Shown here piece after piece: positions 1,549 to 13,404 of a stretch of DNA of 13,404 nucleotides (the first letter of the stretch is position 1; each line of letters starts with the position of its first letter). The position numbers were made by a program, and so were the translations under genes. Under the pieces are notes generated by a model, which worked only from the letters and a program-made list of their open reading frames with translations, was not told the DNA's origin and did no database searches. This DNA is from Candidatus Altimarinota bacterium (GTDB taxonomy: Bacteria > Patescibacteriota > Gracilibacteria > JAHISY01), in the NCBI GenBank assembly GCA_023142645.1, contig JAGLJE010000066.1, positions 1 to 13,404 on the forward strand, in the 5' to 3' direction.

Positions 1549-1577
1549 ATTTTAAAGGGAGAGAGGGCAATGTTCAA
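1549..1577 (-). promoter_or_regulatory. thrS promoter, leaderless type
   Basis: Reading the minus strand, TTGAAC (1577-1572) is followed by a 17-bp spacer, TAAAAT (1554-1549), 6 nt, and the GTG start. Transcription would begin at or within 1-2 nt of the start codon. Confidence 0.7.
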
Positions 1578-1604
1578 TTTTTTCAATGTGCAATGTGCAA
1601 TGAA
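1568..1604. repeat. CAATG short repeats between divergent promoters
   Basis: CAATG occurs at 1568, 1584, 1591 and 1598. The last three are in perfect 7-bp phase (CAATGTG CAATGTG CAATGAA). The cluster lies between and partly over the -35 regions of thrS and the 113-aa gene, where an operator could sit. Function unknown. Confidence 0.5.
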
Positions 1605-1612
1605 GTTATGCT

Positions 1613-1640
1613 TTGGGAGCCTTTAGAATTGTTGTAAAAT
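1613..1640 (+). promoter_or_regulatory. Promoter of the 113-aa membrane gene, leaderless type
   Basis: TTGGGA (1613-1618), 16-bp spacer, TAAAAT (1635-1640), then 6 nt to the ATG at 1647. No Shine-Dalgarno is present. Confidence 0.65.
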
Positions 1641-1646
1641 TTTCAC

Positions 1647-1988
1647 ATGGGAAACGACAAAGCTGAAAAGAAGCGATTAAAGGCGCGAATCAAGTTTGCC
1701 AAGGCGCAGGCGAAATTAGCGGAGGGCGAGCAGTCGCAGTCGGTGGTTTCGTCAGAAAATCAAGCCTCACCCGCGCTGAAGTTTGCGGAAGCGGTGCGGG
1801 GGTTGCTGTATTTACTCGGATCGGCTTCGCTTGTTTTGGCTGTGGTGCTTCAAGAAAGGGGTGTGTGGATTACTTTGGATGAGATTGTGGAGAATCTTCT
1901 GGTAATTCGGGCAGGGCAGGTGGTGTTGATCGTAATTGCGCTAGCTTTGTTTATTTATGGGCTGAAGCATATTCGGTTGGTTAGGTAG
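1647..1988 (+). CDS. Small two-helix membrane protein, unknown function
   Basis: A 113-aa protein not recognised as a named family. The first ~45 residues are highly charged (Lys/Glu/Ala/Gln-rich, probably helical and cytoplasmic). Two hydrophobic segments follow, at about residues 50-68 (GLLYLLGSASLVLAVVL) and 89-106 (GQVVLIVIALALFIYGL), and the protein ends in a short basic tail (KHIRLVR). The ATG at 1647 is supported by a TAAAAT box 6 nt upstream. It is divergent from thrS and lies upstream of the SLH protein gene, with 83 nt between them, so co-transcription is possible but not shown. A role in the envelope is all that can be inferred. Confidence 0.8.
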   Translation: MGNDKAEKKRLKARIKFAKAQAKLAEGEQSQSVVSSENQASPALKFAEAVRGLLYLLGSASLVLAVVLQERGVWITLDEIVENLLVIRAGQVVLIVIALALFIYGLKHIRLVR

Positions 1989-2071
1989 GGGTTTAGGGTT
2001 GGTGGGGATTTGCATTTAACTTGATTTTTTTCAGGTTTTTTCCTAAAGTAATAGTAATAATTCTCTTGTCT

Positions 2072-4255
2072 ATGTCTTTTCGCACCATCTTTATGGTAAC
2101 ATCAGTTGTTGCTTTCTTCCCATCGTTAGTTTTTGCAACAAGCGTTGCATTCCCCGATGTCACTGCGAGTAATCCAAACAAGATTGCCATTGAGTATTTG
2201 CAAGACAACGGCGTGATAAACGGTTACGGCGATGGTACATTCAAGCCACAGAATAAAATCAATCGGGCAGAACTCCTCAAAGTACTGGTCGAAGGGCAGG
2301 GTATCACGCCTGACGCGAGTACCTACAGCCACTGCTTCCCTGATGTGAAGGACGAGTGGTTCGTGCCGTATGTTTGCTATGCCGAAGAAGCAGGTTGGGT
2401 ATCTGGCTATCCCGACGGCACATTCCAACCTGCGCGGACAGTCTTGAAGGTGGAGAGTCTAAAAATGATTTTGAATGCTTACGGTTTCACTGTACCCGAG
2501 CAGGTGGCTGCCGCACCCTTTGCCGATACAAATGCAAACGCGTGGTACACGCCATTCGTGGCAGAGGCAAAAGAGCGTGGACTGTTGGAGGAGACGGGCG
2601 GCACTTTCGAACCTGCGGGTGAGATGGCACGAGGGGGCGTGGCAGAAAATATCTTTCGTAGCATTGCAGTGAAACAAGTAAATGTCGAAGTATTCAGCCC
2701 GACTATTATTGAGACTGCTATTAGCATGCCCATCATTCGCGTGGAGTATGTCGACACGCTTATCACGGGGAACACCAACATTGATAACTCAACTCACATC
2801 ACGAATGTGGATAACTCCGTGACGGACAATTCCAGCAACACGACCTACAACATCCAGCTCATCACACCGTCCAATCCCGACACAAGCACGACTTTTCAAA
2901 CGAACTCAAACACAGCAGCACTTAATGCACTCAACAGCGAATACAAACTCCAGTTCGATGCGATCGACCAGCAGATTGTAGATTTGCAGAGTAAGTACTA
3001 CGAGGATGTCGAGAATCTCAAGCAAAACGCCTACCTCTCGCAATCATCGCTCGACAGCAGGATTCAGAAGCTTACCAGCGACACTAACTTTGAAATTCAA
3101 AAACTACAAACCAAGCGGGATGCTCTCTGGCTCGAATACGAGCGCAAAGCGGATACTATTGAAAATGCTTCTGCCAGCAATTCTAGCGCAACAACGCAGT
3201 CATCCAGCCCGCGCAGTTGTACCGTGGAGAATGGCACGGGTCAGCAAGCATGGAATACTGCCACGCAAAACTGGGGTGCGTGTACGCTCGCAAGCTGTAA
3301 TAGTGGTTTTGTTGAACAAGGTAATGTTTGCACTGCAGCCATTACTTTTCAGCGTGTGTGGATTGATGATGAGGATAAATTTCTAATCAAGAACCTAAAC
3401 CCTCATAACATTCAACTTAAGAAATTTATCTTTCTTGATGAGTCAAACGGAAATGAATTCGAGTATGCAAATTTTGGTTTTAGATTCCCAGATTCCTATG
3501 ATTACTCTTGTCAGTACGATTTTGAGTATGCCTCACAATGTCGGTATATCGAGTCTGACCAAAAGAGATGTGCGAGAAAAGCAGGGTTCAGCGCTCTGCA
3601 AAATGAAGTACGAGCAAATGAAACTGTGGAGTTTAGGAGAGTGCTATCTACTCCTCTAAAACAAATTGTTTATTTTGATAAAACAATTGGGACAGAATTG
3701 ATTTTTACTGTTACAAATGATCCTGGAGGACACATCGCCACACCTACAGGAATAGGCAAGCCCACTATTTATCTCGCGAGTAGCTCTCCAAGTGGAAGTC
3801 GCACGGTTTGCGCTTCGGACAATGTTTTCGTCTTTGAGGTCGCTGCAGACAACAACGGCAAGGTGCTGCTCGAAGAGCTGACAGTACAATTACACTCTGA
3901 CAGTAGCTTCAACTTAGAGCAAGGAAGTGATTTGCAGGCGTATCTCAAAGAAGGTGGCAATACCGTCGCCACCAGTAGCATCACCCTAACGGATACTTCA
4001 AGTGGTTCGGCTACCTTCACATTCAACCCAGCATTTGAAATAGTCAAAGGAACACGCAAGACCTTCACACTACGGACTGACACTACGAAACTTATTAGCG
4101 ATGAGAGCGGAACAGATGATCCGTTTACTCTAAGCATTGACCTCGGAACTAAAGATAATGCAGGCGGTTTCATTTGGAGCGATGGTATTACAAGCGGTAT
4201 CAGTTGGGTAGACACTTCGAATCACACACTGAACAGCAATACACTCAGGTACTAA
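2072..4255 (+). CDS. Secreted S-layer-homology (SLH) surface protein
   Basis: A 727-aa secreted modular protein. A signal peptide (residues 1-22, MSFR, hydrophobic core, VFA) is followed by three SLH domains at about 27-76, 89-138 and 149-200 (FPDV...GYGDGTFKP...NRAELL; FPDV...GYPDGTFQP; FADT...GGTFEP). These normally anchor proteins to cell-wall polymer. Then come an Asn/Thr-rich stretch (~234-265), a coiled coil (~283-365), a Cys-rich module with the pattern C..nGtG...W....W..C...C..GF.....C (~383-420), an AT-richer segment with five Cys in its centre, and a C-terminal Ser/Thr-rich beta domain. The frame is open back to a TTG at 2021, but ATG 2072 gives a better signal peptide and has AATAAT (2056-2061) 10 nt upstream. 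The likely role is S-layer component or cell-surface adhesin; the ligand is unknown. Confidence 0.9.
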   Translation: MSFRTIFMVTSVVAFFPSLVFATSVAFPDVTASNPNKIAIEYLQDNGVINGYGDGTFKPQNKINRAELLKVLVEGQGITPDASTYSHCFPDVKDEWFVPYVCYAEEAGWVSGYPDGTFQPARTVLKVESLKMILNAYGFTVPEQVAAAPFADTNANAWYTPFVAEAKERGLLEETGGTFEPAGEMARGGVAENIFRSIAVKQVNVEVFSPTIIETAISMPIIRVEYVDTLITGNTNIDNSTHITNVDNSVTDNSSNTTYNIQLITPSNPDTSTTFQTNSNTAALNALNSEYKLQFDAIDQQIVDLQSKYYEDVENLKQNAYLSQSSLDSRIQKLTSDTNFEIQKLQTKRDALWLEYERKADTIENASASNSSATTQSSSPRSCTVENGTGQQAWNTATQNWGACTLASCNSGFVEQGNVCTAAITFQRVWIDDEDKFLIKNLNPHNIQLKKFIFLDESNGNEFEYANFGFRFPDSYDYSCQYDFEYASQCRYIESDQKRCARKAGFSALQNEVRANETVEFRRVLSTPLKQIVYFDKTIGTELIFTVTNDPGGHIATPTGIGKPTIYLASSSPSGSRTVCASDNVFVFEVAADNNGKVLLEELTVQLHSDSSFNLEQGSDLQAYLKEGGNTVATSSITLTDTSSGSATFTFNPAFEIVKGTRKTFTLRTDTTKLISDESGTDDPFTLSIDLGTKDNAGGFIWSDGITSGISWVDTSNHTLNSNTLRY

Positions 4256-4392
4256 TTTGGTAATCGAAATTTTTCCAACATTCCTCACTGTCGTGTCATG
4301 GGCTCTTTTTGGGAAGTCGTCACATGAGGTGTGGTGAACATACTCCATTTTGTTTCCTTTTCTTGTATTTTCGAAGATGGTAGAAAAAGAAG

Positions 4393-4422
4393 AAATCTAA
4401 ATATCTCTACTCTTTTAGATTT
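4393..4422 (+). terminator. Possible weak terminator after SLH gene
   Basis: AAATCTAA (4393-4400) pairs with TTAGATTT (4415-4422), 8 bp around a 14-nt loop, running into a short T run. The stem is A/T dominated and 138 nt past the stop, so this is weak evidence. Confidence 0.3.
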
Positions 4423-4513
4423 TTACGAACGGTTAAGGTAATTCGTGAATCAAATAAATCAAATAAATCAGCGTAATCAGTGGTTCAAAACTTTTTTCAT
4501 CCCACTCTTTCCA

Positions 4514-4567
4514 TCTCGCAATCAAGAAAATCCGTAAATCAGGAAAATCAAGATTCGAACAATGAGA
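4514..4567 (+). repeat. Dispersed A-rich intergenic repeat, copy 1
   Basis: Begins TCTCGCAATCAAGAAAATCC and continues through AAATCAGGAAAATCAAGATTC. A second copy lies at 6244-6343, where it is split by a GC-rich hairpin. Weaker similarity extends upstream of both (TTTTTCA, then a CT-rich tract). Confidence 0.65.
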
Positions 4568-4569
4568 GA

Positions 4570-4598
4570 TTGACGAGATTATTTATAGGCTTTATGAT
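4570..4598 (+). promoter_or_regulatory. Promoter of the 127-aa membrane gene
   Basis: TTGACG (4570-4575), 17-bp spacer, TATGAT (4593-4598), then 7 nt to the ATG at 4606. Both hexamers match the sigma70 consensus at 5 of 6 positions. It implies a leaderless or nearly leaderless transcript. Confidence 0.75.
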
Positions 4599-4605
4599 TT
4601 GACTT

Positions 4606-4989
4606 ATGGACGATACATTAAAATATTTAATATTTTTAACGCACGATCAAATAGTGTTTTGGTTGCTGCAGATAATTTTGTTGCTAATATTTCTGTATGC
4701 ATGCATTTATCCTAAATATATAGCTTATCGTAATGAAAGAGGTGGGGTAAATTTTACCACAACAAGGGAAGAAAAATCTTTAAAATATCTTCGCAATTTT
4801 GCTAGTGGTTTTACATCGATAATTCTCGCGGTTATGATAAGTATCGCCGATGTTGCTTATGGTCACAAGGTTTTTATATTTTTATTAGACATAATAATAG
4901 TTTTATATTTATCTTACTATAATGATTGGTTTAGGAATAAATTGATTGGTATTTATAGTCGAATAGAGCAAAAAGAAGAGAAACATTAG
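4606..4989 (+). CDS. Three-helix membrane protein, unknown function
   Basis: A 127-aa protein, not recognised. Hydrophobic segments lie at about residues 16-38 (IVFWLLQIILLLIFLYACIY), 69-88 (FTSIILAVMISIADVAYG) and 89-106 (FIFLLDIIIVLYLSYY). Between the first two is a basic, Thr/Glu-rich loop (NERGGVNFTTTREEKSLKYL), and the tail is charged (RIEQKEEKH). The codons are markedly AT-rich compared with thrS or the SLH gene, which fits an accessory or recently acquired gene. The start is set by a strong promoter whose -10 box ends 7 nt before the ATG. The gene stands alone between repeat-rich spacers, so context gives no clue to its role. Confidence 0.8.
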   Translation: MDDTLKYLIFLTHDQIVFWLLQIILLLIFLYACIYPKYIAYRNERGGVNFTTTREEKSLKYLRNFASGFTSIILAVMISIADVAYGHKVFIFLLDIIIVLYLSYYNDWFRNKLIGIYSRIEQKEEKH

Positions 4990-5045
4990 GTAGGTCATTA
5001 TTTTTTTCATCTACAAAATTTACGAAAATTGCGACTTTGAATTTG

Positions 5046-5163
5046 TCTGAACCTCTGAAATACACCTGAAATCACTGACGCACACTGAACACTGATTTTC
5101 ACTGAATTGTTTTTCAGTGTTCATGTGAAATTCATGTGGCATCAGTGCGTTCAGTGGTTCAGA
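5046..5163. repeat. Inverted-repeat element made of CACTGAA units
   Basis: TCTGAACC (5046-5053) pairs with GGTTCAGA (5156-5163), and TGAACACTGA (5086-5095) pairs perfectly with TCAGTGTTCA (5114-5123). CACTGA/TCAGTG units recur in both orientations throughout. The right end (TCAGTGGTTCA, 5151-5161) is also found at 4477-4487, in both cases followed by ACTTTTTTCA. It would form a long imperfect hairpin. Confidence 0.65.
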
Positions 5164-5165
5164 CT

Positions 5166-5187
5166 TTTTTCAGCAGGTGCTTTCTTT
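5166..5187 (+). repeat. 22-bp direct repeat, left copy
   Basis: Five T followed by CAGCAGGTGCTTTCTTT. The exact sequence recurs at 6018-6039, so the pair brackets the 241-aa orphan gene. Confidence 0.8.
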
Positions 5188-5214
5188 ATTTACGATCAAT
5201 GCCATTCTTAAACA

Positions 5215-5242
5215 TTGAATAAATTTATTTTTATGGTAAAAT
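5215..5242 (+). promoter_or_regulatory. Promoter of the 241-aa orphan gene
   Basis: TTGAAT (5215-5220), 16-bp spacer, extended -10 TGGTAAAAT (5234-5242), then 8 nt to the ATG at 5251. The TTG at 5215, which opens the longest reading frame, is this -35 box. Confidence 0.7.
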
Positions 5243-5250
5243 CAATCTTC

Positions 5251-5976
5251 ATGAAAAATCAACTCGCAGACATTCCCGATCAAATTGTCCAGCTTGAGAC
5301 ATTGCACGACGAAGGAGGTTTCTCGTCGGTGCAAGAACTGCGAGATAAATATCGAGATGTGCATCTCCGCAAAGCTTTATCCGGTCAACTCCAAACCGAT
5401 AATCCAGATGCACGCAAATTACCTCAATTGAGACACTCCGTCATCCAAGGTGCTGGCAAAGGCTTGCCGGATTATCCGAGCCGTTATTTTGAATGGCTCC
5501 GGTCGCTACCCCTGCGCGAGGTCGAAAATTATGCTGATTCGGCGATTCGAGATAACCAACGATTTCCTTTTTTAACTCGCGCTAACCAGCTTAAAAGCAT
5601 TTTGAAAAATAAAATTAAGGAAGGGATTTCTCCGACGAGTGTACTTTGTCGGATTCCCACGGAATTTATTTCCGAAAAAACAGACGGCAAAAAACAAAGA
5701 TGCGAAATCCACATCAGCAATTTTCAAATCTTATTTATGTTTCACATGCAAGCAAAAGGAATGGCGGCCAGTCGCGGATTTGAAGATAAAACTTATCGCT
5801 TACGATTATTTGCTCTCAATAAACTTTTTGCACCTGACTTTATTCGCCATGTTAACGAAAATGCCGGCGAAGAAGTAAAAAGAGAAATGTGCTCTGGTGA
5901 TTACAAAAAAGCTGTTGATATTTTGCTTTCAGCTACGAATGAATTTATGAGGAAATATAATTTTCGAGGGATTTGA
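5251..5976 (+). CDS. Orphan protein of unknown function, bracketed by repeats
   Basis: A 241-aa soluble protein that I do not recognise. It has no signal peptide or membrane segment, is rich in basic and aromatic residues, and looks mainly helical. An N-terminal acidic stretch (DIPDQIVQLETLHDEGG) is followed by a region with YPSRYFEWLRSLP, a central NQLKSILKNKIKEG, two cysteines (SVLCRIP and KQRCEIH), and a C-terminal helical part (YRLRLFALNKLFAPDF...AVDILLSATNEFMRKYNF). The frame is open back to TTG 5215, but that codon is the promoter -35 box, so ATG 5251 is chosen. The gene stands alone between two identical 22-bp repeats (5166-5187 and 6018-6039), with the inverted-repeat element upstream and the GC-rich element downstream. 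A cargo or mobile-locus role is only a guess. Confidence 0.8.
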   Translation: MKNQLADIPDQIVQLETLHDEGGFSSVQELRDKYRDVHLRKALSGQLQTDNPDARKLPQLRHSVIQGAGKGLPDYPSRYFEWLRSLPLREVENYADSAIRDNQRFPFLTRANQLKSILKNKIKEGISPTSVLCRIPTEFISEKTDGKKQRCEIHISNFQILFMFHMQAKGMAASRGFEDKTYRLRLFALNKLFAPDFIRHVNENAGEEVKREMCSGDYKKAVDILLSATNEFMRKYNFRGI

Positions 5977-6017
5977 TTTTTTATTTCTTCGATATTTTTT
6001 TCTTTCACCCATTCTAA

Positions 6018-6039
6018 TTTTTCAGCAGGTGCTTTCTTT
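6018..6039 (+). repeat. 22-bp direct repeat, right copy
   Basis: Identical to 5166-5187 (five T, then CAGCAGGTGCTTTCTTT), in the same orientation. Confidence 0.8.
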
Positions 6040-6043
6040 GAAG

Positions 6044-6198
6044 AACCCCTGCTCTGTTGTCCTTTTGTGTTTTAAAAACAGGTGGCTTCGCCGCCCCATT
6101 AACAAGGGGCTTCCACCGTTGCTCCCCTGCCTGTCCGCCATAGCCGAAGCGAAGGCGGAATAAGGGGAGATGTCCCGCTGCGGCGGGGCAGAGGGGTT
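6044..6198. repeat. GC-rich multi-hairpin palindromic element
   Basis: The whole block closes on itself: AACCCC-TGC-TCTG (6044-6056) pairs with CAGAGGGGTT (6189-6198), with a 3-nt bulge. Inside are GGTGGC/GCCGCC (6081-6095), GCCCC/GGGGC (6093-6097 with 6106-6110), CTCCCCT/AGGGGAG (6122-6128 with 6163-6169) enclosing TCCGCC/GGCGGA (6134-6139 with 6154-6159), and CCCGC/GCGGG (6174-6187). The base composition contrasts sharply with the AT-rich surroundings. It resembles REP/MITE-like intergenic palindromes; a structured RNA is possible. Confidence 0.6.
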
Positions 6199-6243
6199 GG
6201 TTTCTATTAGCACAATTATGAATTTTTCAGCTCACCCTTTTTT

Positions 6244-6343
6244 TCTCGCAATTAAGAAAATCCCGCCTGCCCTCTGAAGCTCCGCCGCAGCGGAGCGAAG
6301 GATGAGTTAATCAAGAAAATCAGGATTCAGACAAATTGATGAG
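6244..6343 (+). repeat. Dispersed A-rich repeat, copy 2, interrupted
   Basis: TCTCGCAATTAAGAAAATCC, then a 42-nt block (6264-6305), then AATCAAGAAAATCAGGATTC. Apart from the block it follows copy 1 (4514-4567) closely. Confidence 0.6.
6264..6305. mobile_element. 42-nt GC-rich hairpin inserted in a repeat
   Basis: Contains the perfect hairpin GCTCCGC-CGCA-GCGGAGC. The block is absent from the uninterrupted copy at 4514-4567, so it looks like a small palindromic unit that moved in. The exact ends are approximate. Confidence 0.45.
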
Positions 6344-6417
6344 AAATGAAATTTAGCACCAATACGACGATTGAAAATTCAAGTTGCTCTGCCATGAGAC
6401 ACTGTGTAGTATCGAAT

Positions 6418-6423
6418 TATAAT
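6418..6423 (+). promoter_or_regulatory. -10 box of the DUF5678-like/retropepsin pair
   Basis: Perfect TATAAT, 10 nt before the ATG at 6434. No convincing -35 box is seen. The predicted leader is only a few nucleotides long. Confidence 0.6.
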
Positions 6424-6433
6424 AATTTTGTTT

Positions 6434-6598
6434 ATGAAATTTAAGGCTGAACATGCTGGAAAGTGGATAGTCGCTAAAGACGAAAAAATCGTTGCTGTCG
6501 ACAAAACTTTTACTAAACTCAAAAAGCGAGTGATCGATCGTGTAGATTTTGGAGAATTGAGATTTGCTCTCGTCCCTAAAGGTCATATCGCCGGTTAA
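6434..6598 (+). CDS. Small DUF5678-like protein
   Basis: A 54-aa protein, MKFKAEHAGKWIVAKDEK continuing to LRFALVPKGHIAG. The 'aGKWia...ekiVAvdktf..L' opening and the 'fALVPKGhIaG' ending match, from memory, the small DUF5678 family, whose function is not known. It stops at 6598, and the retropepsin-like gene begins 2 nt later, so the two are almost certainly one transcript. A perfect TATAAT lies 10 nt upstream of the ATG and no Shine-Dalgarno is visible. A partner role for the protease (substrate, inhibitor or antitoxin-like) is inferred from the tight pairing only. Confidence 0.75.
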   Translation: MKFKAEHAGKWIVAKDEKIVAVDKTFTKLKKRVIDRVDFGELRFALVPKGHIAG

Positions 6599-6600
6599 TT

Positions 6601-7014
6601 ATGTTATTCAAATATTCACAGCAACAATTTTCTGATGGCAAAGGCATGAGCTTGCCGCTTATTCCGGTTACTTTCAAAAATAAGAAGCATGTAATGCGGA
6701 CAATAGCACTGATTGATTCCGGTGCAGACATCTCGATTTTACCAATCCAAATAGCGGGGGAATTAAACCTAAAATTAAATCCGAAAGAAAAAATTGAGAT
6801 CAATGCAGCTGGAGGAAATACATTTTTTGTTTATCCTTCTGCAGATAAAGTTGAATGTATCATCGAACAAAAAGGATTCAGATCAATTGTTCTAAGATCA
6901 AAAATTTACTTTACAGAAGCGGTAGCAACGATATTAATTGGTTATAATAATTTTCTGTATCAATTGAAAGTTGTGCTTGATGGCACTAAAAAAGAAGTTG
7001 GAATAAACAGATAG
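6601..7014 (+). CDS. Retropepsin-like aspartic protease (clan AA)
   Basis: A 137-aa single-lobed protease expected to act as a homodimer. The catalytic motif is ALIDSGADISILP with D39-S40-G41, and the second hallmark, ILIG (I111-G114) followed by YNNFLYQLKVVLD, corresponds to the family's ILG..f pattern. The length is right for one retropepsin lobe. There is no signal peptide or membrane anchor, so it should act in the cytoplasm. The ATG is 2 nt past the stop of the DUF5678-like gene, with no Shine-Dalgarno, so translational coupling is likely. The gene is AT-rich like its partner. Its stop codon lies inside a perfect 10-bp hairpin. The family call is strong; the physiological substrate is unknown. 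Confidence 0.85.
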   Translation: MLFKYSQQQFSDGKGMSLPLIPVTFKNKKHVMRTIALIDSGADISILPIQIAGELNLKLNPKEKIEINAAGGNTFFVYPSADKVECIIEQKGFRSIVLRSKIYFTEAVATILIGYNNFLYQLKVVLDGTKKEVGINR

Positions 7015-7027
7015 CGAATCTGTTTAT
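7003..7027. terminator. Perfect hairpin at the retropepsin stop codon
   Basis: ATAAACAGAT (7003-7012), loop AGCGA, ATCTGTTTAT (7018-7027): ten perfect pairs spanning the TAG stop. There is no immediate T run on either strand (a run of seven T follows ~22 nt later), so it may be an atypical terminator between convergent genes or a 3'-end RNA-stability hairpin. Confidence 0.4.
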
Positions 7028-7054
7028 CTGTAATGAGGGATTTGCGCGATTTTT

Positions 7055-8680
7055 TTACTCACTCGCCCCCTCCAACGCCGTGAGCACTCCCCGCACTTTT
7101 TTCTCAATCTCTTTAAATTCATTTCTTGGCACGGAATCTGCCACTACGCCCGCGCCGGCTTGCACGGTAGCCTTTCCATTCGCCGCGAACAGGCTCCGCA
7201 AATTTACTGCAAGCACGCAATCACCTGTTAAGCTGAAAAATCCTACTGCGCCGGCGTACGGTCCACGCGCATCCGGTTCGAGTCGCTGGATTATTTTCAT
7301 CGTTTCAATCTTCGGTGCGCCGGAAACGGTGCCCATTGGCATTTGCGCCGCGAGCGCGTCGAAGGCATTCTGATCTTTCCGCAATTTTCCCACCACCTCG
7401 CTCGCGATGTGTTGCACATGCGAGAATTTTTTGATCACCATCAATTTTCGCACTTTCACGCTTCCGAATTCGCACACTTTTCCGACATCATTTCGCGCTA
7501 GATCGACGAGCATCATGTGCTCTGCTTTTTCTTTTTCGTCCGCCAATAACTCTTTCGCCAGCTTCGCATCTCGTTTCGCATCTCCCGTAATTTTTCTTGT
7601 ACCAGCCAGAGGGTAATTCTCCACCATTCCATTTTCCACTCGCACGATCAGCTCGGGCGAGCTGCCGATTAGTTCTCGTGTTCCGAATTTCAGAAAAAAC
7701 ATGTGAGGGGAGGGATTCACCTCGCGGAGTTTTTTGTAAAAATCCAATCGGTTGCCTTTCAGCTCGAAAAAATATTTCCGGCTGATTACGAATTGGAAAG
7801 TGTTGCCCGCGAAAATTTCTTTTTTGCCTTCTGTTACCGCCGCCTCGAAGTTTTTTTGGCTGCGATTTGTTCCGCTCGCCTGCGCTGTGAATTTTCGCTC
7901 GCGATGGAGCGGTTTCCTTAAAATTTTCTCGAGTAGCTTGCTGCGATCTTCGCTCAAATAAAAATATTTCAGTTCTCCGTTTTTTTTATCGAAAATCAAA
8001 CCGTCGAAGTAAAGTCCGAACTCGAAATCGGGAAAGTCGGGATGCTCCCTGAATTTCACGCTCGGTTCGAAATAACGGGTCGCCTCATAATTTAAGTATC
8101 CAAACAGCCCGCCACGGAACCCCCTTCCTTTCGGTAGTTTCGGCAGAAAAAGTTTTAACGCTTCGAAAGGATTCGGCGTGGCAAAAACTTTTCCATTTAT
8201 AACGAGCTTTCCCGGATTGCCGTGAATTATCGCGTGTGGTGCAAAACCAAGATAACTTTTTCGCGAAAAATCATCATAATTCCCGAGCGATTCGAGTAAA
8301 AAACAGGTTTCGAAACTTTGTTTCAGCCGCGCAAAAATTTCCAGTAAATCGAGACTGGTTTTAATTTTTTTTTCGCGATATTTTAATTTTTTTGGGGAGA
8401 GTTTTTCTGCGAGCAAAAAAAAACTTTTTTGGCTTCCGCGCGAGATTCCCATCAACACCTTCCAAATTTTATCCACATCTTTTTTTGCAATTCCTAATTT
8501 TTCGCCCTCTTGCTGTAGTTTCGCAATCAATTCTTTTTCCCGCTTTGCATCACGAATAGGTTTTCCGCCGCGAATTTTGGTCGCGGCGACTTCGGTCGCG
8601 AGATTTTGTCGCTTCGCGAGGATTCGCAAAAGTTCAGTGTCGAGCGTGTTGATTTCGCCACGAAGTTTATGGAGATTCAC
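7055..8680 (-). CDS. trpE: Chorismate mutase-anthranilate synthase component I fusion
   Basis: A 541-aa two-domain enzyme. Residues 1-88 form an AroQ-type chorismate mutase (chorismate to prephenate). All E. coli-type active-site residues are present: R7, R24, K35, D44, R47, E48, S80 and Q84. Residues ~105-538 are anthranilate synthase component I (chorismate to anthranilate, using ammonia from a TrpG partner). They carry LLES (128-131, the tryptophan feedback motif), FQFVISRKY, PLAGTR (357-362; Ala at 359 rather than the Lys of PabB), LVDLARNDVG, FSHVQHIAS (H424), GTVSGAPK and QAGAGVVADS. The start is GTG 8680, with TGCTAAAAT ending 6 nt upstream and no Shine-Dalgarno. It lies 22 nt after the 74-aa gene. 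The domains compete for the same substrate, so the fusion is unusual. No trpG is in the window. Confidence 0.93.
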   Translation of the reverse strand: MNLHKLRGEINTLDTELLRILAKRQNLATEVAATKIRGGKPIRDAKREKELIAKLQQEGEKLGIAKKDVDKIWKVLMGISRGSQKSFFLLAEKLSPKKLKYREKKIKTSLDLLEIFARLKQSFETCFLLESLGNYDDFSRKSYLGFAPHAIIHGNPGKLVINGKVFATPNPFEALKLFLPKLPKGRGFRGGLFGYLNYEATRYFEPSVKFREHPDFPDFEFGLYFDGLIFDKKNGELKYFYLSEDRSKLLEKILRKPLHRERKFTAQASGTNRSQKNFEAAVTEGKKEIFAGNTFQFVISRKYFFELKGNRLDFYKKLREVNPSPHMFFLKFGTRELIGSSPELIVRVENGMVENYPLAGTRKITGDAKRDAKLAKELLADEKEKAEHMMLVDLARNDVGKVCEFGSVKVRKLMVIKKFSHVQHIASEVVGKLRKDQNAFDALAAQMPMGTVSGAPKIETMKIIQRLEPDARGPYAGAVGFFSLTGDCVLAVNLRSLFAANGKATVQAGAGVVADSVPRNEFKEIEKKVRGVLTALEGASE

Positions 8681-8686
8681 GAGAGT

Positions 8687-8695
8687 ATTTTAGCA
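8687..8695 (-). promoter_or_regulatory. Extended -10 box before trpE
   Basis: On the minus strand, TGCTAAAAT ends 6 nt before the GTG at 8680. It lies in the 22-nt gap after the 74-aa gene, allowing an internal leaderless promoter in addition to read-through. Confidence 0.6.
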
Positions 8696-8702
8696 GCAAA
8701 TT

Positions 8703-8927
8703 TTACGAGCGAAGGAGATCCGCGAATTTTTTTGCAACAGAACGGCTGTTTGGATCGTGCGGATGTTTATCTCTGATTTTATCCGCTGCTCGATTTTGCT
8801 CCAAAAATTCTAAATATCTTTTTTCGGCGAGAAGCAAAGTCTCCTCTTTTTTTCTCAAACCGTTCAAAAAGTCATTGTAATTAAACTTTGGCAGCCTGAT
8901 GGAAATGTCATTTTTGTGCTCGCTCAT
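8703..8927 (-). CDS. Small charged protein upstream of trpE, unknown
   Basis: A 74-aa protein, not recognised. It is highly charged and probably helical (GLRKKEETLLLAEKRYLEFL; AADKIRDKHPHDPN), with no Cys, no signal peptide and no membrane segment. It precedes trpE by 22 nt on the same strand, so the two may share a transcript. A consensus promoter (TTGACA-N16-TAAAAT) lies 21 nt upstream of its ATG. An alternative ATG at 8950 is in another frame and gives only an 8-residue peptide (MNSFNFSR) whose TGA overlaps this ATG (ATGA), which is a possible coupling arrangement. Whether it has any role in aromatic amino-acid synthesis is unknown. Confidence 0.65.
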   Translation of the reverse strand: MSEHKNDISIRLPKFNYNDFLNGLRKKEETLLLAEKRYLEFLEQNRAADKIRDKHPHDPNSRSVAKKFADLLRS

Positions 8928-8948
8928 CTAGAAAAATTAAAGGAGTTC

Positions 8949-8976
8949 ATTTTAAAAAAAGCGATATTTTTGTCAA
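8949..8976 (-). promoter_or_regulatory. Consensus promoter of the 74-aa gene/trpE
   Basis: On the minus strand, TTGACA (8976-8971) matches consensus perfectly and is followed by a 16-bp spacer and TAAAAT (8954-8949). The start codon is 21 nt further on, so the leader is about 15 nt. The -35 box overlaps the likely -35 region of hisF on the other strand. Confidence 0.75.
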
Positions 8977-8986
8977 ATTTTATTTC

Positions 8987-8995
8987 TGTTAAAAT
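8987..8995 (+). promoter_or_regulatory. Extended -10 box of hisF, leaderless type
   Basis: TGTTAAAAT (8987-8995) ends 6 nt before the GTG at 9002. A -35-like TTGTCA (8970-8975) is only 14 bp upstream, which is short, but an extended -10 needs little -35 contact. Confidence 0.7.
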
Positions 8996-9001
8996 TTTCG
9001 C

Positions 9002-9760
9002 GTGCTTACGAAAAGAATCATCCCGTGTCTCGATGTGGATGCAGGGAGGGTGGTGAAAGGCGAGAAATTTATTAATCTTCGCGATGCGGGTGATCCTATT
9101 GAGCTTGCGAAATTTTACGATAGCGAGGGTGCGGACGAACTTTGTTTCCTCGATATCACTGCTTCCTCCGATTTTCGCGAGACGGTTTATGAAATGGTTG
9201 AAAAAGTCGCGAATCAAGTTTTTATTCCGTTCGCGGTTGGCGGCGGGATTCGTTCGGTTTCCGATGCAAAAAAAATTCTCGCGGCAGGTGCGGACAAAAT
9301 TGCAGTAAATTCAGCGGCGGTGAAAAATCCAAATTTGATTTCTGAAATTGCGGAGGCGATCGGTTCGCAAAATTTGATTCTCGCGATTGATGCAAAAAAA
9401 GCTGGGAATAAATTCGAAGTGTTTACTCGCGGCGGGCGGGATTCCGCAAATTTAGATGCGGTTGAGTGGGCGGTCCGCGGAGAAAAATTGGGGGCGGGCG
9501 AGATTCTTCTCACTTCGATGGATGCAGATGGCACTAAAAAAGGTTTTGATATTCCACTTACGCGTGTAGTTTCCGAAGCGGTGAAAATTCCGATTATCGC
9601 TAGCGGGGGGGCGGGGAGAGCGGAGGACTTTCTCGAAGTTTTTCAAAAAACGAGCGCAGAGGCGGCACTTGCAGCTTCTATTTTTCATTTCCGTGAAACA
9701 TCGATAAGAGCCATCAAAGATTTCTTGGCAGCGAAGGGAGTTTCGGTGAGGAGAGTTTGA
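9002..9760 (+). CDS. hisF: Imidazole glycerol phosphate synthase cyclase subunit HisF
   Basis: A 252-aa TIM-barrel enzyme of histidine synthesis. Using ammonia from the HisH glutaminase, it turns PRFAR into imidazole glycerol phosphate and AICAR. Both catalytic aspartates sit at the family positions: D11 in IIPCLDVD and D130 in ILAIDAKK. Phosphate-binding and core motifs include [49 protein letters not shown] and IIASGGAG. The length is normal. The start is GTG 9002, preceded by TAAAAT at 6 nt and no Shine-Dalgarno. hisI follows 89 nt downstream with its own -10 box. No hisH is in the window. The TGA stop falls exactly where the family ends, so UGA is not recoded here. Confidence 0.97.
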
Positions 9761-9837
9761 TGTTGTTTCAAGTTTCTAAATTTTTAAATTCCAAAATATA
9801 ATTTCCAAATTACAAAAAAGATAAATTAGTTTTCAGT

Positions 9838-9843
9838 TAAAAT
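9838..9843 (+). promoter_or_regulatory. -10 box of hisI, leaderless type
   Basis: TAAAAT (9838-9843) ends 6 nt before the GTG at 9850. An AT-rich tract upstream also contains a perfect TATAAT (9797-9802), a possible alternative start with a ~40-nt leader. No clear -35 box is seen. Confidence 0.6.
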
Positions 9844-9849
9844 GACTTC

Positions 9850-10185
9850 GTGGACAAGAGTGAGCTTAATTTTTCGAAGATGGGCGGGTTGATTCCCGCG
9901 GTAATTCAAGATTCCGAAACAGGCGAGGTTTTGATGTTGGCTTTTCAAAATCAGGAAGCTTTCGAAAAAACTTTAGAGAGCGGGGAGGTTTATTTTTTTT
10001 CGCGCTCTCGCCAAAAATTGTGGAAGAAAGGCGAGACGAGCGGGAATGTTTTGCGCGTTGTCGAGATTTTTGCCGACTGCGATGATGATTCGGTGATTAT
10101 TAAAGTTCAGCATGATCCGAATTTGCGCGTGTGCCATACCGGTAAGCGGAGTTGTTTTTTTAAAAGCGTTCAGTGTAGAGCATAA
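9850..10185 (+). CDS. hisI: Phosphoribosyl-AMP cyclohydrolase HisI
   Basis: A 111-aa stand-alone PRA-CH, the third step of histidine synthesis (ring opening of PR-AMP). The signature is complete: W58KKGETSGN, then DCDDD (D76, C77, D78, D80; metal and zinc ligands), VCHTG (C95) and SCFF (C102). Many bacteria fuse HisI to HisE; here they are separate genes 34 nt apart. The start is GTG 9850, set by TAAAAT at 6 nt. The gene lies between hisF and the hisE-like gene on the same strand. Confidence 0.96.
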   Translation: MDKSELNFSKMGGLIPAVIQDSETGEVLMLAFQNQEAFEKTLESGEVYFFSRSRQKLWKKGETSGNVLRVVEIFADCDDDSVIIKVQHDPNLRVCHTGKRSCFFKSVQCRA

Positions 10186-10219
10186 CAACATACAAAAATT
10201 ACTGATTGGTTTTTTTGAT

Positions 10220-10627
10220 ATGAATAATTCTGAAAGAAATCTCGCGAAAAAACTTTTCTCCGTTTTCGAGATGCTCCGCGATTCAGACAAATTCAAACAC
10301 TCCGGAACTTCAAAAATGTTGCGAGAAAAAAATTCACAATTTTTTCGCGCGCGCGCGGTGGAAGAATTCACCGAACTTGTGGGTGTTGTTGATGGCAGTC
10401 ACCGCCACTCCGATGATTTTGAAAAAGATTTCGTACTTGAAAGTTCGCAAGTTTTTTACTGGCTCGCGCTTGCGGTAGTGGTTCAAAACAAATCGTTCGA
10501 AGAACTTGAAAAAGAGTTTGCTGGTGAGTTGGCTCGCCTCGAAAAACTTCATGCGGAGAATAAGATTCCGCTTCTAAAAATCTTCGAAAAAGATTTAGAA
10601 GAATGCAAAAAAAAAGGTTATTTGTGA
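10220..10627 (+). CDS. Divergent phosphoribosyl-ATP pyrophosphatase-like protein
   Basis: A 135-aa all-helical protein placed where hisE is expected, 34 nt after hisI. It resembles the HisE/MazG fold: RARAVEEFTELVGVVDG carries the EExxE motif (E48, E49, E52), and 21 residues later LESSQVFYWLALAVV carries E74. The family's ExxD aspartate is glutamine here (Q77). It is longer than a typical HisE, with a charged C-terminal extension. The function, hydrolysis of PR-ATP to PR-AMP, is inferred from position plus this partial motif. It could instead be an inactive or altered MazG-like nucleotide pyrophosphatase. Start ATG 10220 is chosen because an upstream in-frame start (10112) would overlap hisI by 74 nt. 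The 3' end overlaps prs by 10 nt. Confidence 0.7.
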   Translation: MNNSERNLAKKLFSVFEMLRDSDKFKHSGTSKMLREKNSQFFRARAVEEFTELVGVVDGSHRHSDDFEKDFVLESSQVFYWLALAVVVQNKSFEELEKEFAGELARLEKLHAENKIPLLKIFEKDLEECKKKGYL

Positions 10628-11571
10628 GATTCCCAAAATTTTGAAACGGAGCGACCTTCATGTACTCCGCGGATGGTTTGCGCGAGAAGATTTGCAATCG
10701 AGAGAATTTTTACGTTTTGCAAATTTCCGAAATTTTGTGGAATCGAATCAGTAAAAACAATTTCGCTGAATTTCGCATCAGCCAGTTTTTCCTTTGCATC
10801 GTTTGAAAGAACCGCATGAGTTGCCGCGAGAAAAATTTCGCGTGTACCATTTTTCCGCAAAGCTTCAGTAGCGGCGGAAACGGAGCCGGCGGTGTCAACA
10901 AGATCATCAAAAATAATTGCGGTTTTGTTGGCGACATCCCCAACGATTTTTTGAATTTCTGCTCGGTTGTGGGCTGGTCGTGATTTATGGAGAATGGCGA
11001 GATCGGTGTTCAGAAGTCTCGCGAATTTTTCCGCATTCTTCGCACCACCCGCATCTGGAGAAACGACCACCGGGTTCTTCAACTTCTTTCGCGAAAAATA
11101 ATCAAGAAAAAGTTTTTTGGCGGTGAGGTTGTCTACCGGTTTTTCGAAAAAAGCTTGCGTTTGATCGGAGTGTAAATCGAGAGTAATGATATGTTTCGCG
11201 CCTGCGCATTCAATTAAATTTGCCACGAGTTTTGCGGAAATCGGTTCGCGCGGATCAGTTATCTTGTCCTGACGTGCATAGCCGAAGTGAGGAATAACAA
11301 CATGGATGTATTTTGCGAGGCTTCGTTTCAAAGCATCAATTACCAAAAACAACTCCATCAAATCTTCATTTACATTTTGTGTTGCGCTTGAAATTACGAA
11401 ACAATTACAGCCACGTACGGACTCACCGATTTGTATGTATTTCTCTCCGCACGCGAATTTTTTGATTTTTAATTTACCCGGTTTCACTCCGGTTTTTTGA
11501 CAAATCTTTTTTCCCAGCGCGATAGAGCTTGAGGTGGAAAAAATTTTGAGAAATTTGAGATCAGATTTCAT
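10618..11571 (-). CDS. prs: Ribose-phosphate pyrophosphokinase (PRPP synthetase)
   Basis: A 317-aa class I PRPP synthetase (ribose 5-phosphate + ATP to PRPP + AMP). It has the ATP-site PHFGYARQDK (94-103), DLHSDQTQAFF (132-142), VVSPDAGGAKNAEKFA (169-184) and the PRPP loop FDDLVDTAGS (221-230). One oddity is FACGE (39-43), where most members have FxDGE. The length is normal. The ATG at 11571 has an extended -10 box, TGTTAGAAT, 9 nt upstream. The gene converges on hisE, overlapping it by 10 bp, and follows the terminator of the pilin-like gene. Its product supplies HisG and TrpD, matching the histidine and tryptophan genes nearby. Confidence 0.96.
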   Translation of the reverse strand: MKSDLKFLKIFSTSSSIALGKKICQKTGVKPGKLKIKKFACGEKYIQIGESVRGCNCFVISSATQNVNEDLMELFLVIDALKRSLAKYIHVVIPHFGYARQDKITDPREPISAKLVANLIECAGAKHIITLDLHSDQTQAFFEKPVDNLTAKKLFLDYFSRKKLKNPVVVSPDAGGAKNAEKFARLLNTDLAILHKSRPAHNRAEIQKIVGDVANKTAIIFDDLVDTAGSVSAATEALRKNGTREIFLAATHAVLSNDAKEKLADAKFSEIVFTDSIPQNFGNLQNVKILSIANLLAQTIRGVHEGRSVSKFWESHK

Positions 11572-11580
11572 TGTAGAAGA

Positions 11581-11589
11581 ATTCTAACA
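11581..11589 (-). promoter_or_regulatory. Extended -10 box of prs
   Basis: On the minus strand, TGTTAGAAT ends 9 nt before the ATG at 11571, giving a leader of about 2-3 nt. The -35 is weak. Confidence 0.6.
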
Positions 11590-11605
11590 CTTCATCTAAA
11601 AATTC

Positions 11606-11640
11606 GAAAAACAAAAACCTCCCGCTGAGACGAGAGGCTT
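11606..11640 (-). terminator. Rho-independent terminator of the pilin-like gene
   Basis: On the minus strand, CCTCTCG-(6 nt)-CGGGAGG (11637-11618; 7 bp including one G-T pair) is followed by TTTTTGTTTTT. It starts 24 nt after the stop at 11661 and separates that gene from prs. Confidence 0.85.
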
Positions 11641-11660
11641 TCAAGTAATTAAAATCGAAA

Positions 11661-12050
11661 CTATTGATCTATTCTGCTGGGCGAAACCATATCTACGAGA
11701 GCATTCACGAGGACTGCGGAAAGGAGGATAACCACGATACCAATTGCTGCGTATGTGATGAGCTTCTTCGCTTTGTTGATGTTCTCATCATTCCCTGCGG
11801 AAGTGATATAAAGGAATCCGCCGTATATAAGGAAGCCGGTAGCAATTAAACCAAGAAAAAGAAGTACCCAGTTAACTATGTTGAGTACCAAATTCCGCAG
11901 ACCAGGATCACAAAGACCTTGATCAATTTGCCACTGGGTACAAGTTTGGTTTATGTCGTCCGCCAAGACAGCTGGAGCTGAAATCGCGAGAGTAGAAACG
12001 CCAAAGAGAGTAGCCAACCCGAGGGCGAGAACTTTAAGTTTGGTAGACAT
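11661..12050 (-). CDS. TrbC/VirB2-like pilin-type membrane protein
   Basis: A 129-aa protein with a signal peptide (residues 1-30, MSTKLKVLALGLATLFG... APAVLA), a short exported segment with two Cys (CTQWQIDQGLC), and two membrane helices at about 53-79 (LVLNIVNWVLLFLGLIATGFLIYGG) and 97-118 (ITYAAIGIVVILLSAVLVNALV) with a charged loop between (NDENINKAKK). This matches the small two-helix pilin-like proteins of the TrbC/VirB2 type that are frequent in CPR genomes, here without other secretion genes. A promoter and a strong terminator show it is a separate transcription unit. Its role as a pilus subunit or envelope component is inferred from family resemblance. Confidence 0.75.
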   Translation of the reverse strand: MSTKLKVLALGLATLFGVSTLAISAPAVLADDINQTCTQWQIDQGLCDPGLRNLVLNIVNWVLLFLGLIATGFLIYGGFLYITSAGNDENINKAKKLITYAAIGIVVILLSAVLVNALVDMVSPSRIDQ

Positions 12051-12081
12051 TTTTAAAAGGGGTTATTTTTAAATCATTGGG

Positions 12082-12109
12082 ATTTTAATGAAAAGAGAAT
12101 AAATTGCAA
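12082..12109 (-). promoter_or_regulatory. Promoter of the pilin-like gene
   Basis: On the minus strand, TTGCAA (12109-12104), 16-bp spacer, TAAAAT (12087-12082), then 31 nt to the ATG at 12050. Unlike its neighbours this gene would have a leader of about 24 nt, still with no Shine-Dalgarno. Confidence 0.55.
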
Positions 12110-12117
12110 AACTTTTG

Positions 12118-12816
12118 TCAATCCCGATTCATCGCGATCATAAAGCGGAGAATGTATTGAAAAAGCAGTACAAAATCAAGAAAAAGTGAAATTGCAGCAC
12201 TGATCGGAGAAATTCCGGGTTGCGCACGTGTGATTTTTTGAAAATCGTGAGCGGTAAATCCCGCGAACAATAAGATTCCGAAACCGGAAAAGATTAGTTC
12301 AATGCGACTGCTCCAAATTTCCACTCCAAAAAGATGGAATATGAAAGTAATCACGCTTACGCAAATCATTCCGATTAATCCCGCCATCAAAAATCCGCCG
12401 ATGCCAGAGAGATCGCGTTTTGTTGTAAATCCGTAGATCGCCATTCCGCCGAACATCGAAACAGTCGCGAGGAGAGCTTTTCCCAAAATTCCGATGCCCG
12501 CGGTGAGAGTCGCGTATGCCAAAATTGGAACGAGCGTAAGACCGAGGATTCCGGCAAAAAGAATTAAAAAAAGATAACCGAACCTTCCAACACTCCACTT
12601 TCTTGCGGTAAAAATTAGAATTAATGTGACTGCAAACATTGCCAACATAAATCCACTGTTTGCAAGGAGGGCGGGTGGTAGCCAAAACATTCCTGCAAAG
12701 ACTCCACTTGCCGTGGCGGTGAGTGCGAGTGCCAAATAGCCCATCGTTTGCCCGAAGAAAGTTCGGGTGGACGTGGGGGCAGGGTCGGAATGCGAGTGAA
12801 TGAAAGCTTGATTCAT
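12118..12816 (-). CDS. Bax inhibitor-1/YccA family membrane protein
   Basis: A 232-aa integral membrane protein with about seven helices and a ~23-residue polar N-terminus (MNQAFIHSHSDPAPTSTRTF). Family features include the FFGQTMGYLALALTATASG first helix, MAIYGFTTKRDLSGIGGFL in the middle and FAGFTAHDFQKI near the end. A C-terminal helical segment (FLDFVLLFQYILRFM) matches 'LYLDFINLFLyLLRil' of BI-1 proteins. Bacterial members such as YccA/YbhL are linked to membrane-protease control or calcium leak; the role here is unknown. It lies upstream of the pilin-like gene on the same strand; its TGA is 67 nt before that ATG, whose promoter fills the gap. Confidence 0.9.
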   Translation of the reverse strand: MNQAFIHSHSDPAPTSTRTFFGQTMGYLALALTATASGVFAGMFWLPPALLANSGFMLAMFAVTLILIFTARKWSVGRFGYLFLILFAGILGLTLVPILAYATLTAGIGILGKALLATVSMFGGMAIYGFTTKRDLSGIGGFLMAGLIGMICVSVITFIFHLFGVEIWSSRIELIFSGFGILLFAGFTAHDFQKITRAQPGISPISAAISLFLDFVLLFQYILRFMIAMNRD

Positions 12817-12881
12817 TGCGAGTGATTTTCACGTATACAAAATTTTTTTGCAAATGAAGAAAAATGCTTTAAGTAAGTATT

Positions 12882-12897
12882 TTTTGTGAACACAAAA
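12882..12897. promoter_or_regulatory. Palindrome between BI-1 gene and ftsA
   Basis: TTTTGTG-AA-CACAAAA: two 7-bp arms pair perfectly around AA. It lies between the divergent BI-1-family gene and ftsA, about 65 bp upstream of the BI-1 start. It could be an operator for a dimeric regulator. Confidence 0.45.
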
Positions 12898-12980
12898 TTT
12901 CCTCAAAACAAGTAATTGAACTCAAAAATTGTTCATCTTGGTTTGCGCTTCGATTCCGGTAAATCTAAACTGACCGAAGC

Positions 12981-12986
12981 TAAAAT
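12981..12986 (+). promoter_or_regulatory. -10 box of ftsA
   Basis: TAAAAT ends 11 nt before the GTG at 12998, giving a predicted leader of about 5 nt. No clear -35 box. Confidence 0.5.
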
Positions 12987-12997
12987 ACATTTTCTGC

Positions 12998-13404
12998 GTG
13001 CCTAAAGATAATACCGTTGTCGGTCTCGATATCGGAACTAGCAAAATTCGCACCGTAATCGCGAATGTTGATGAACGAGATATTTCGCCGAATGTGGTGG
13101 GAGCGGGAGTTTCTCCTTCCGCTGGTTTGAGGAAAGGAGCGATTGTTGATGTAAATGAAACGATTTCGTCGATCACGGCTTCGCTTGAGGATGCAGAAAG
13201 AATGAGTGGTGATCCGATTCATCATGCTGTCGTGGCTGTCGGTGGAGCGCATCTCGCGGCGCAAGATTCGAAAGGCGTGATTGCAGTGCCACATGGCGGA
13301 GAGATTTCTCCTGCGGATGTCGAACGCGTGCTCGAAGCAGCGCAAGCGGTCAATATTTCATCGAATCGACAGATTCTCCGTGTAATTCCGCAAAATTACA
13401 TTGT
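12998..13404 (+). CDS. ftsA: Cell division protein FtsA, N-terminal part
   Basis: The first 135 residues of an actin-like ATPase that tethers FtsZ to the membrane. The N-terminus carries the phosphate-1 motif VVGLDIGTSKIRTVIA. It continues with GAIVDVNETISSI, a typical FtsA segment, then HHAVVAVGGAHLAAQDSKGVIAV (the SHS2/1C-type insert characteristic of FtsA) and DVERVLEAAQAV...RQILRVIPQNYIV. The gene runs off the right edge within the last codon. GTG 12998 is chosen because it gives the usual short lead-in (MPKDNTV) before the actin fold and has TAAAAT 11 nt upstream. ftsZ would be expected downstream. Confidence 0.93.
   Translation, partial: MPKDNTVVGLDIGTSKIRTVIANVDERDISPNVVGAGVSPSAGLRKGAIVDVNETISSITASLEDAERMSGDPIHHAVVAVGGAHLAAQDSKGVIAVPHGGEISPADVERVLEAAQAVNISSNRQILRVIPQNYI

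Follow-up and report, generated by a model that had tools for sequence, protein, structure and literature searches.

Boxes upstream of the genes in the window

The window, by which we mean the whole stretch of 13,404 nucleotides analysed, is one entire contig of a genome of 791,606 bases in 165 contigs that is 71.65% complete. Pfam matches support thrS, hisF, hisI, prs and ftsA, together with genes for a Bax1-I protein, a T4SS pilin and an SLH protein. The nearest named relatives of prs come from genomes labelled Ca. Peribacteraceae, Ca. Gracilibacteria and Patescibacteria; those labelled Ca. Peregrinibacteria are more distant. The trpE-type protein (7055-8680, minus strand) carries, at its N terminus and fused to the domains of anthranilate synthase component I, a chorismate mutase type II domain (PF01817). 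A small protein (6601-7014, plus strand) resembles retropepsin-like aspartyl proteases, though weakly and below the cutoff.

A preliminary description of this DNA claimed that a TAAAAT box ends exactly 6 nt before the start codon of five genes: thrS, trpE, hisF and hisI, each starting with GTG, and a 113-aa gene starting with ATG. All five proved exact. It also listed -10-like boxes at looser spacings before the starts at 4606 and 5251, prs, the start at 6434, and ftsA; every one of these is present in the sequence, but conservation backs prs alone. The boxes are given below, where N (or d) followed by a number is the number of nucleotides between box and start codon; those for the starts at 4606, 5251, 6434 and 8927 are read from the window's sequence itself.

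1549..1554, minus strand: TAAAAT box, N6 before the GTG of thrS (1542); exact
1635..1640, plus strand: TAAAAT box, N6 before the ATG of the 113-aa gene (1647); exact
4593..4598, plus strand: TATGAT box, N7 before a putative ATG (4606); start uncertain
5237..5242, plus strand: TAAAAT box, N8 before the ATG at 5251
6418..6423, plus strand: TATAAT box, N10 before the ATG at 6434; weaker
8687..8692, minus strand: TAAAAT box preceded by TGC, N6 before the GTG of the trpE-type gene (8680); conserved
8949..8954, minus strand: TAAAAT box, 21 nt before the ATG at 8927; possible leadered mode
8990..8995, plus strand: TAAAAT box preceded by TGT, N6 before the GTG of hisF (9002); conserved
9838..9843, plus strand: TAAAAT box, N6 before the GTG of hisI (9850); conserved
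11581..11586, minus strand: TAGAAT box preceded by TGT, N9 before the ATG of prs (11571); predicted 3-nt leader
12082..12087, minus strand: TAAAAT box, 31 nt before the ATG of the T4SS pilin gene (12050); example of a leadered mode free of Shine-Dalgarno (SD) sequences
12981..12986, plus strand: TAAAAT box, N11 before the GTG of ftsA (12998); present, unconserved

At the frequency of TAAAAT in the window, its occurrence at N6 before five of 16 starts has a probability of about 4e-12, and of 4e-9 if the frequency is set fourfold higher. The same-genus genomes examined were G000-G004, with G005 drawn from the same family. The trpE box lies at N6 in G001, G002 and G005 and at N7 in G003; trpE also has a second TAAAAT, at d19. 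The hisF box is found at N6 in G001 and G003 and at N9, before an ATG, in G002. At hisI, TAAAAT or TAGAAT stands at N6 in G001, G002 and G003, in each of which the nearest in-frame stop falls 2-4 codons before the start. thrS of G005 shows TAGAAT-N6-ATG a codon ahead of where its start was projected. thrS and the 113-aa gene are divergent, with a gap of 104 and N6 on both sides; no relative of the 113-aa gene, nor of the gene at 5251, was found in the sequence pieces examined.

The prs box occurs at N9 in five of five genus or family genomes (the window's own, G001, G002, G003 and G005), and in all of them the seventh nucleotide after the box is A; of three genomes at a greater distance, one lacks a TANNNT box and the remaining two have different ones, at d7 or d9. 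In G002 and G003, too, the T4SS pilin gene lacks a near box, and its TAAAAT is followed by an A/T-rich stretch. The N11 box of ftsA is probably not a leaderless promoter, because G002, G003 and G005 have TTG there and no box. Across 58 ortholog pairs, a box is present in both members of 24 and in neither of 19; it is confined to the window's genome in nine and to the other genome in six.

Starts were called from coding statistics alone, with no motif used, which gave 278 genes; an earlier caller (202 genes) was dropped as too insensitive. The 278-gene caller missed hisI and the open reading frame 8703-8927, and its starts differ from the author's choice at 2072, 4606 (where it begins at 4681), 10220 and 12816. 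Starts in the window were therefore inspected by hand and against relatives.

Spacing, motif and start codon

The distribution of TAAAAT distances across the genome, named beforehand as a test, is not flat: it has a peak at N6 and a shoulder extending to N9. In 326,097 bases of the window's genome, TAAAAT occurs before open reading frames of at least 80 aa 28 times at d6, 21 times at d7 and 11 times at d8, compared to 1-11 times at each other distance from d0 to d39; d8 alone is not outstanding, since its count falls within the range of the others. No peak at d6-d8 is apparent for reading frames shorter than 80 aa in the same bases, and the related hexamers TTAAAA, ATAAAA and AATAAA show no comparably sharp peak. 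Before the starts called without any motif (n=247), TAAAAT is found 26 times at d6, seven times at each of d7, d8 and d9, and 0-4 times elsewhere up to d49. Divergently transcribed genes have it at d6-9 in 29 of 96 cases, compared to one of 96 at d16-19. Among same-strand genes, it lies at d6-9 in nine of 30 where the gap is 0-19 and in four of 68 where the gap is at least 50.

One way to control for composition is to compare TAAAAT-N6-RTG to the same arrangement at N12, which preserves the phase. In whole genomes the ratio of N6 to N12 is 63/24 in G000, 102/26 in G001, 79/27 in G002, 81/27 in G003 and 108/25 in G004, that is, an excess in five of the five genus genomes examined; G005 shows the same (45/16). 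For the exact hexamer, the excess is small or nil in the rest of the class (G029 51/33, G021 8/6, G023 38/36), and it is not unique to the genus within the phylum (G130 57/21, G389 64/27, G060 82/40, G054 40/27). A Bacillota control, G409, gives 30/36.

Expressed as a share of starts above control, near boxes account for 27% in the window's genome (65/237) and 29% in G004 (38/133), and a near box is present in 35-40% of divergently transcribed genes. The excess is weak or missing in the class members G007 and G023 and in a set of code-25 genomes (11/68 compared to 21 and 11 at control distances), from which it follows that leaderless use is not class-wide.

Two modes of spacing are apparent. 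With a strict box, 64 of 387 starts (the window's genome and G004) have a match at d5-10, where shuffled sequences lead us to expect 2.8; 57 have one solely at d15-44 (13.9 expected), two solely at d11-14 (2.0 expected), and 264 have none up to d44. The preliminary description spoke of pervasive leaderless mRNAs as the default, a view that is partly supported. The first part agrees with the shares of starts and divergent genes given above; the second is too strong, because 57 of the 387 starts have their box at the longer distance and 264 lack a strict box altogether.

The two modes differ in other respects. The A/T fraction before the start is 0.78 for far-box genes, 0.63 for near-box genes and 0.69 where there is no box within 60 nt. 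Near-box starts (n=64) include no SD matches and 24 GTG codons; far-box starts (n=57) include one SD match and 54 ATG codons. The ratio of GTG to ATG is 24/35 at near boxes and 2/54 at far boxes (p 1e-6). The bias is tied to the exact spacing: at near TANNNT boxes in the window's genome, GTG/ATG is 22/14 at d6 and 2/38 at d7-8 (p 8e-8), and in G004 it is 12/11 and 4/23, respectively (p 0.007), with no significant coupling in G005 (p 0.67). GTG starts without TANNNT at d5-10 number 24 of 50 in the window's genome and seven of 24 in G004. The pattern suggests that GTG may be favored where the message is predicted to begin with it.

In the window's genome and G004 the motif is an extended -10 element, TGnTAAAAT, which bears out the earlier claim of TGn extensions. 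TG occupies positions -3/-2 in 39% of 67 near TAAAAT boxes (d6-8), in 35% of 72 at d12-55 and in 2% of 185 inside genes. The same three sets have G at -2 in 61%, 54% and 17%, and A at -1 in 1%, 15% and 33%, respectively. A C-rich stretch lies downstream of the box. An expectation-maximisation motif search also gave TGnTAAAAT, but its fractions were not used, because shuffled sequences scored high as well, with other motifs; strict patterns and shuffles were used instead. The -35 boxes claimed for several genes did not hold up consistently against control boxes (17/58 at boxes and 20/105 at controls in the window's genome, 6/46 and 18/61 in G004, 6/28 and 26/90 in G005). The base at +7 after a strict box at d8-45 is a purine in 73% of 70 cases; for boxes at d8 (n=11) a purine stands at +7 in 27% and at +8 in 73%.

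Among 69 divergent pairs examined in the window's genome and G004, 16 with a gap below 150 have TANNNT at d5-10 on both sides. At L007, L042 and L046 of the window's genome and L085 of G004, 32-37 bp separate the divergent start codons, with outward-facing -10-like boxes at N6-N8; gaps of this size leave no space for separate -35 elements.

Shine-Dalgarno sequences and the 16S tail

That SD sequences are missing, a passing remark in the preliminary description, is the larger finding. In the window's genome three of 237 starts have an SD match, compared to 19 at a control distance. The figures for the class are pooled, with 4 to 149 starts per genome: 21 standard-code genomes (the window's own excluded) give 24/784 compared to 49 and 54 at control distances, and five code-25 members give 2/68 compared to 3 and 3. 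Several small class samples show SD where their controls have none (e.g., G024 2/9 and G006 1/4). In the class members G014, G016, G018, G025 and G027 (L143, L144, L146, L152 and L153), open frames fit a code that reads TGA as sense, with which coding density is higher; there, too, SD stays at background level.

Outside the class, SD is well above controls in each of G054 (42/65), G389 (28/63), G060 (13/65) and the Bacillota genome G409 (34/69), whereas G130, of the same phylum, has 3/18 compared to 4 and 1 at controls. Pooled, the four phylum members and the Bacillota genome give 120/280, compared to 20 and 19; the same caller thus detects SD where it is present. SD is below background across the class as pooled, and clear in three of the four outside phylum members. 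G130 (L121) is a one-contig genome in which the N6 count is 57 compared to 21 and the SD count comes from a 20-kb sample; it is possibly a second SD-poor lineage.

Loss of IF3 or of S1 as the cause of SD scarcity was considered and rejected. IF3 is present in 58 of 60 class genomes, the exceptions being the window's own (71.65% complete) and G417 (77%). S1-type proteins have matches in 59 of the 60; none exceeds the curated rpsA cut-off, which two of 14 controls pass.

Checking the 16S 3' end for an intact anti-SD had been proposed at the outset. It is intact in G001, G002 and G004 of the genus; the 16S of the window's own genome is absent from the assembly, and G005, of the same family, has an altered tail (CATCTCC). 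A 16S-end pattern matched 101 of 212 class genomes. In the 80 of them on which our counts rest, taken from among the matches listed, CCTCC is kept in 22 and altered in 58. The altered tails are not independent, because 49 of them sit in three families (30 in f5, 11 in f14 and eight in f164, with nine in other families). Among class genomes outside the 80, whose 16S end departs from the pattern, the tail is altered in G006 and G011 and intact in G028. Two chance matches, the second hit in G273 and one in G113, were removed on visual inspection, and the two tails of G010, both CCTCC, were counted once. Seven genomes outside the class keep CCTCC. A separate control pattern for the 16S end contains ACCTCC and allows three mismatches, and its bias toward intact tails led us to exclude it from the counts.

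Interpretation and comparison with known systems

The near boxes are best understood as giving rise to leaderless or near-leaderless mRNAs. The sharp spacing, the extended -10 motif, conservation and the coupling of GTG to N6 all point in this direction. TGnTAAAAT would act as an extended -10 element, and RNA polymerase would set in some 7 nt beyond it, so that near-box messages would begin at the start codon itself or 1-3 nt away from it and ribosomes would engage a 5'-terminal start codon without SD contact. In a second mode, the same promoter 15-44 nt upstream would produce a short A/T-rich leader with almost no SD and almost always an ATG. Among genes assigned to a box, GTG would be used mainly where it is the predicted 5' end, at N6. 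The class appears to have fallen out of SD pairing, with the anti-SD of 16S changed in several families. Taken as a whole, this explanation (an extended -10 element at two distances, leaderless or short-leader mRNA, and disuse of SD) seems to us highly probable.

Could the pattern arise by chance in A/T-rich sequence, from which favorable cases were picked? The looser cases (ftsA at N11, 4606 and 6434) are unsupported and would suit such a view, but distance controls, shuffles, the N12 pattern and conservation refute it for N6-N7, and we give it almost no credence. It is also improbable that TAAAAT is a translational signal, an A/U-rich element of the 5' leader that would aid binding of the 30S subunit. 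The A/T-rich upstream regions and the near absence of SD are in keeping with that idea; yet TGn accompanies near and far boxes and not intragenic ones, most strict boxes have a purine at +7, GTG is tied to N6 and not to N7-8, and related hexamers have no peak of comparable sharpness.

A further alternative accepts the leaderless promoters as real, but holds that upstream promoters or read-through supply most protein from longer, leadered mRNAs. Near boxes do occur between tight same-strand neighbors (the nine of 30 noted above), where read-through messages of the upstream gene are likely, and the second TAAAAT of trpE also speaks for this alternative. Against this, none of the 30 tight same-strand genes (gap 0-19) has an SD, which means that re-initiation would still be SD-free. 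We consider this alternative unlikely, while allowing it a real share of the probability.

The leaderless or short-leader explanation can be extended to the class, where it becomes tentative and, in our judgment, not quite an even proposition. The whole class may have given up SD pairing; in the genus, a two-distance extended -10 module would set either a leaderless message or a short A/U-rich leader, with GUG working best at the 5' end, and the anti-SD, freed from selection, would apparently have been altered several times. The class combines a near absence of SD with an anti-SD that some lineages keep intact and others have altered, and this mixture makes the order of events (loss of SD first, decay of the anti-SD later) testable. 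The coupling of GTG to N6 offers a rule that can help to place start codons, and a way of testing 5'-terminal initiation. Gene-finding programs with SD sites in their scoring probably misplace starts in this class.

Leaderless genes are known, usually alongside SD genes. In the SD-poor Bacteroidota, A-rich upstream contexts aid 30S binding and the anti-SD is intact but sequestered by bS21/bS18/bS6. Going by their labels, Peribacter and the Absconditabacteria are probably members of the window's class. CCUCC is lacking in Ca. Peribacter riflensis (Peregrinibacteria, 7% SD) and in two Absconditabacteria SR1 (2 and 7%), as printed in 2024 (PMC10783764), and loss of the anti-SD in these named relatives is already in print. 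The core lost there is intact in the window's genus, with very few SD genes in both; the parts of that paper covered here are silent on promoter position and on spacing to the start codon. In the parts covered, the open-licence literature on leaderless genes or SD in the Candidate Phyla Radiation, Patescibacteria, Gracilibacteria and Peregrinibacteria, and on anti-SD loss with leaderless genes, does not describe the promoter arrangement, and an earlier printed account is possible. In 128 organisms without a consensus anti-SD, loss of SD accompanies loss of the anti-SD (PMC6107228), a loss concentrated, in the portion of that source considered, in some Bacteroidetes, Mycoplasma and Carsonella.

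Enteric bacteria have bidirectional promoters, divergent and pseudo-symmetrical (PMC12825309, PMC10268837); by comparison, in the four cases described above, two outward-facing -10 boxes fit within a start-codon gap of 32-37 bp. In TA-led leaderless genes the start is preceded, at about 10 bp, by a TA-like signal, and TG precedes the TA box in several low-GC genomes; the leaderless share is about 20% in Actinobacteria and about 40% in Deinococcus-Thermus (Zheng et al. 2011, PMC3160421). The window's group is absent from the leaderless groups named in the sections of that paper covered. Judged by the features of TA-led genes, a TA-type -10 box is present here about 6-10 nt ahead of the start, and SD is found at none of the 64 near-box starts. 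On the predicted onset of transcription at the start codon, the purine at +7 and the conserved prs footprint have a bearing.

There is also a likeness to Deinococcus-Thermus. In D. radiodurans, TANNNT about 6-7 bp before the open reading frame marks nearly one third of genes, which are assumed to be leaderless (PMC12340547), and the shares above control in the window's genome and G004 are near that third. The commonest box is TACACT there and TAAAAT here. According to the parts of the same source covered, other genes there carry a GGAG ribosome-binding motif, whereas in the window's genus SD is below background.
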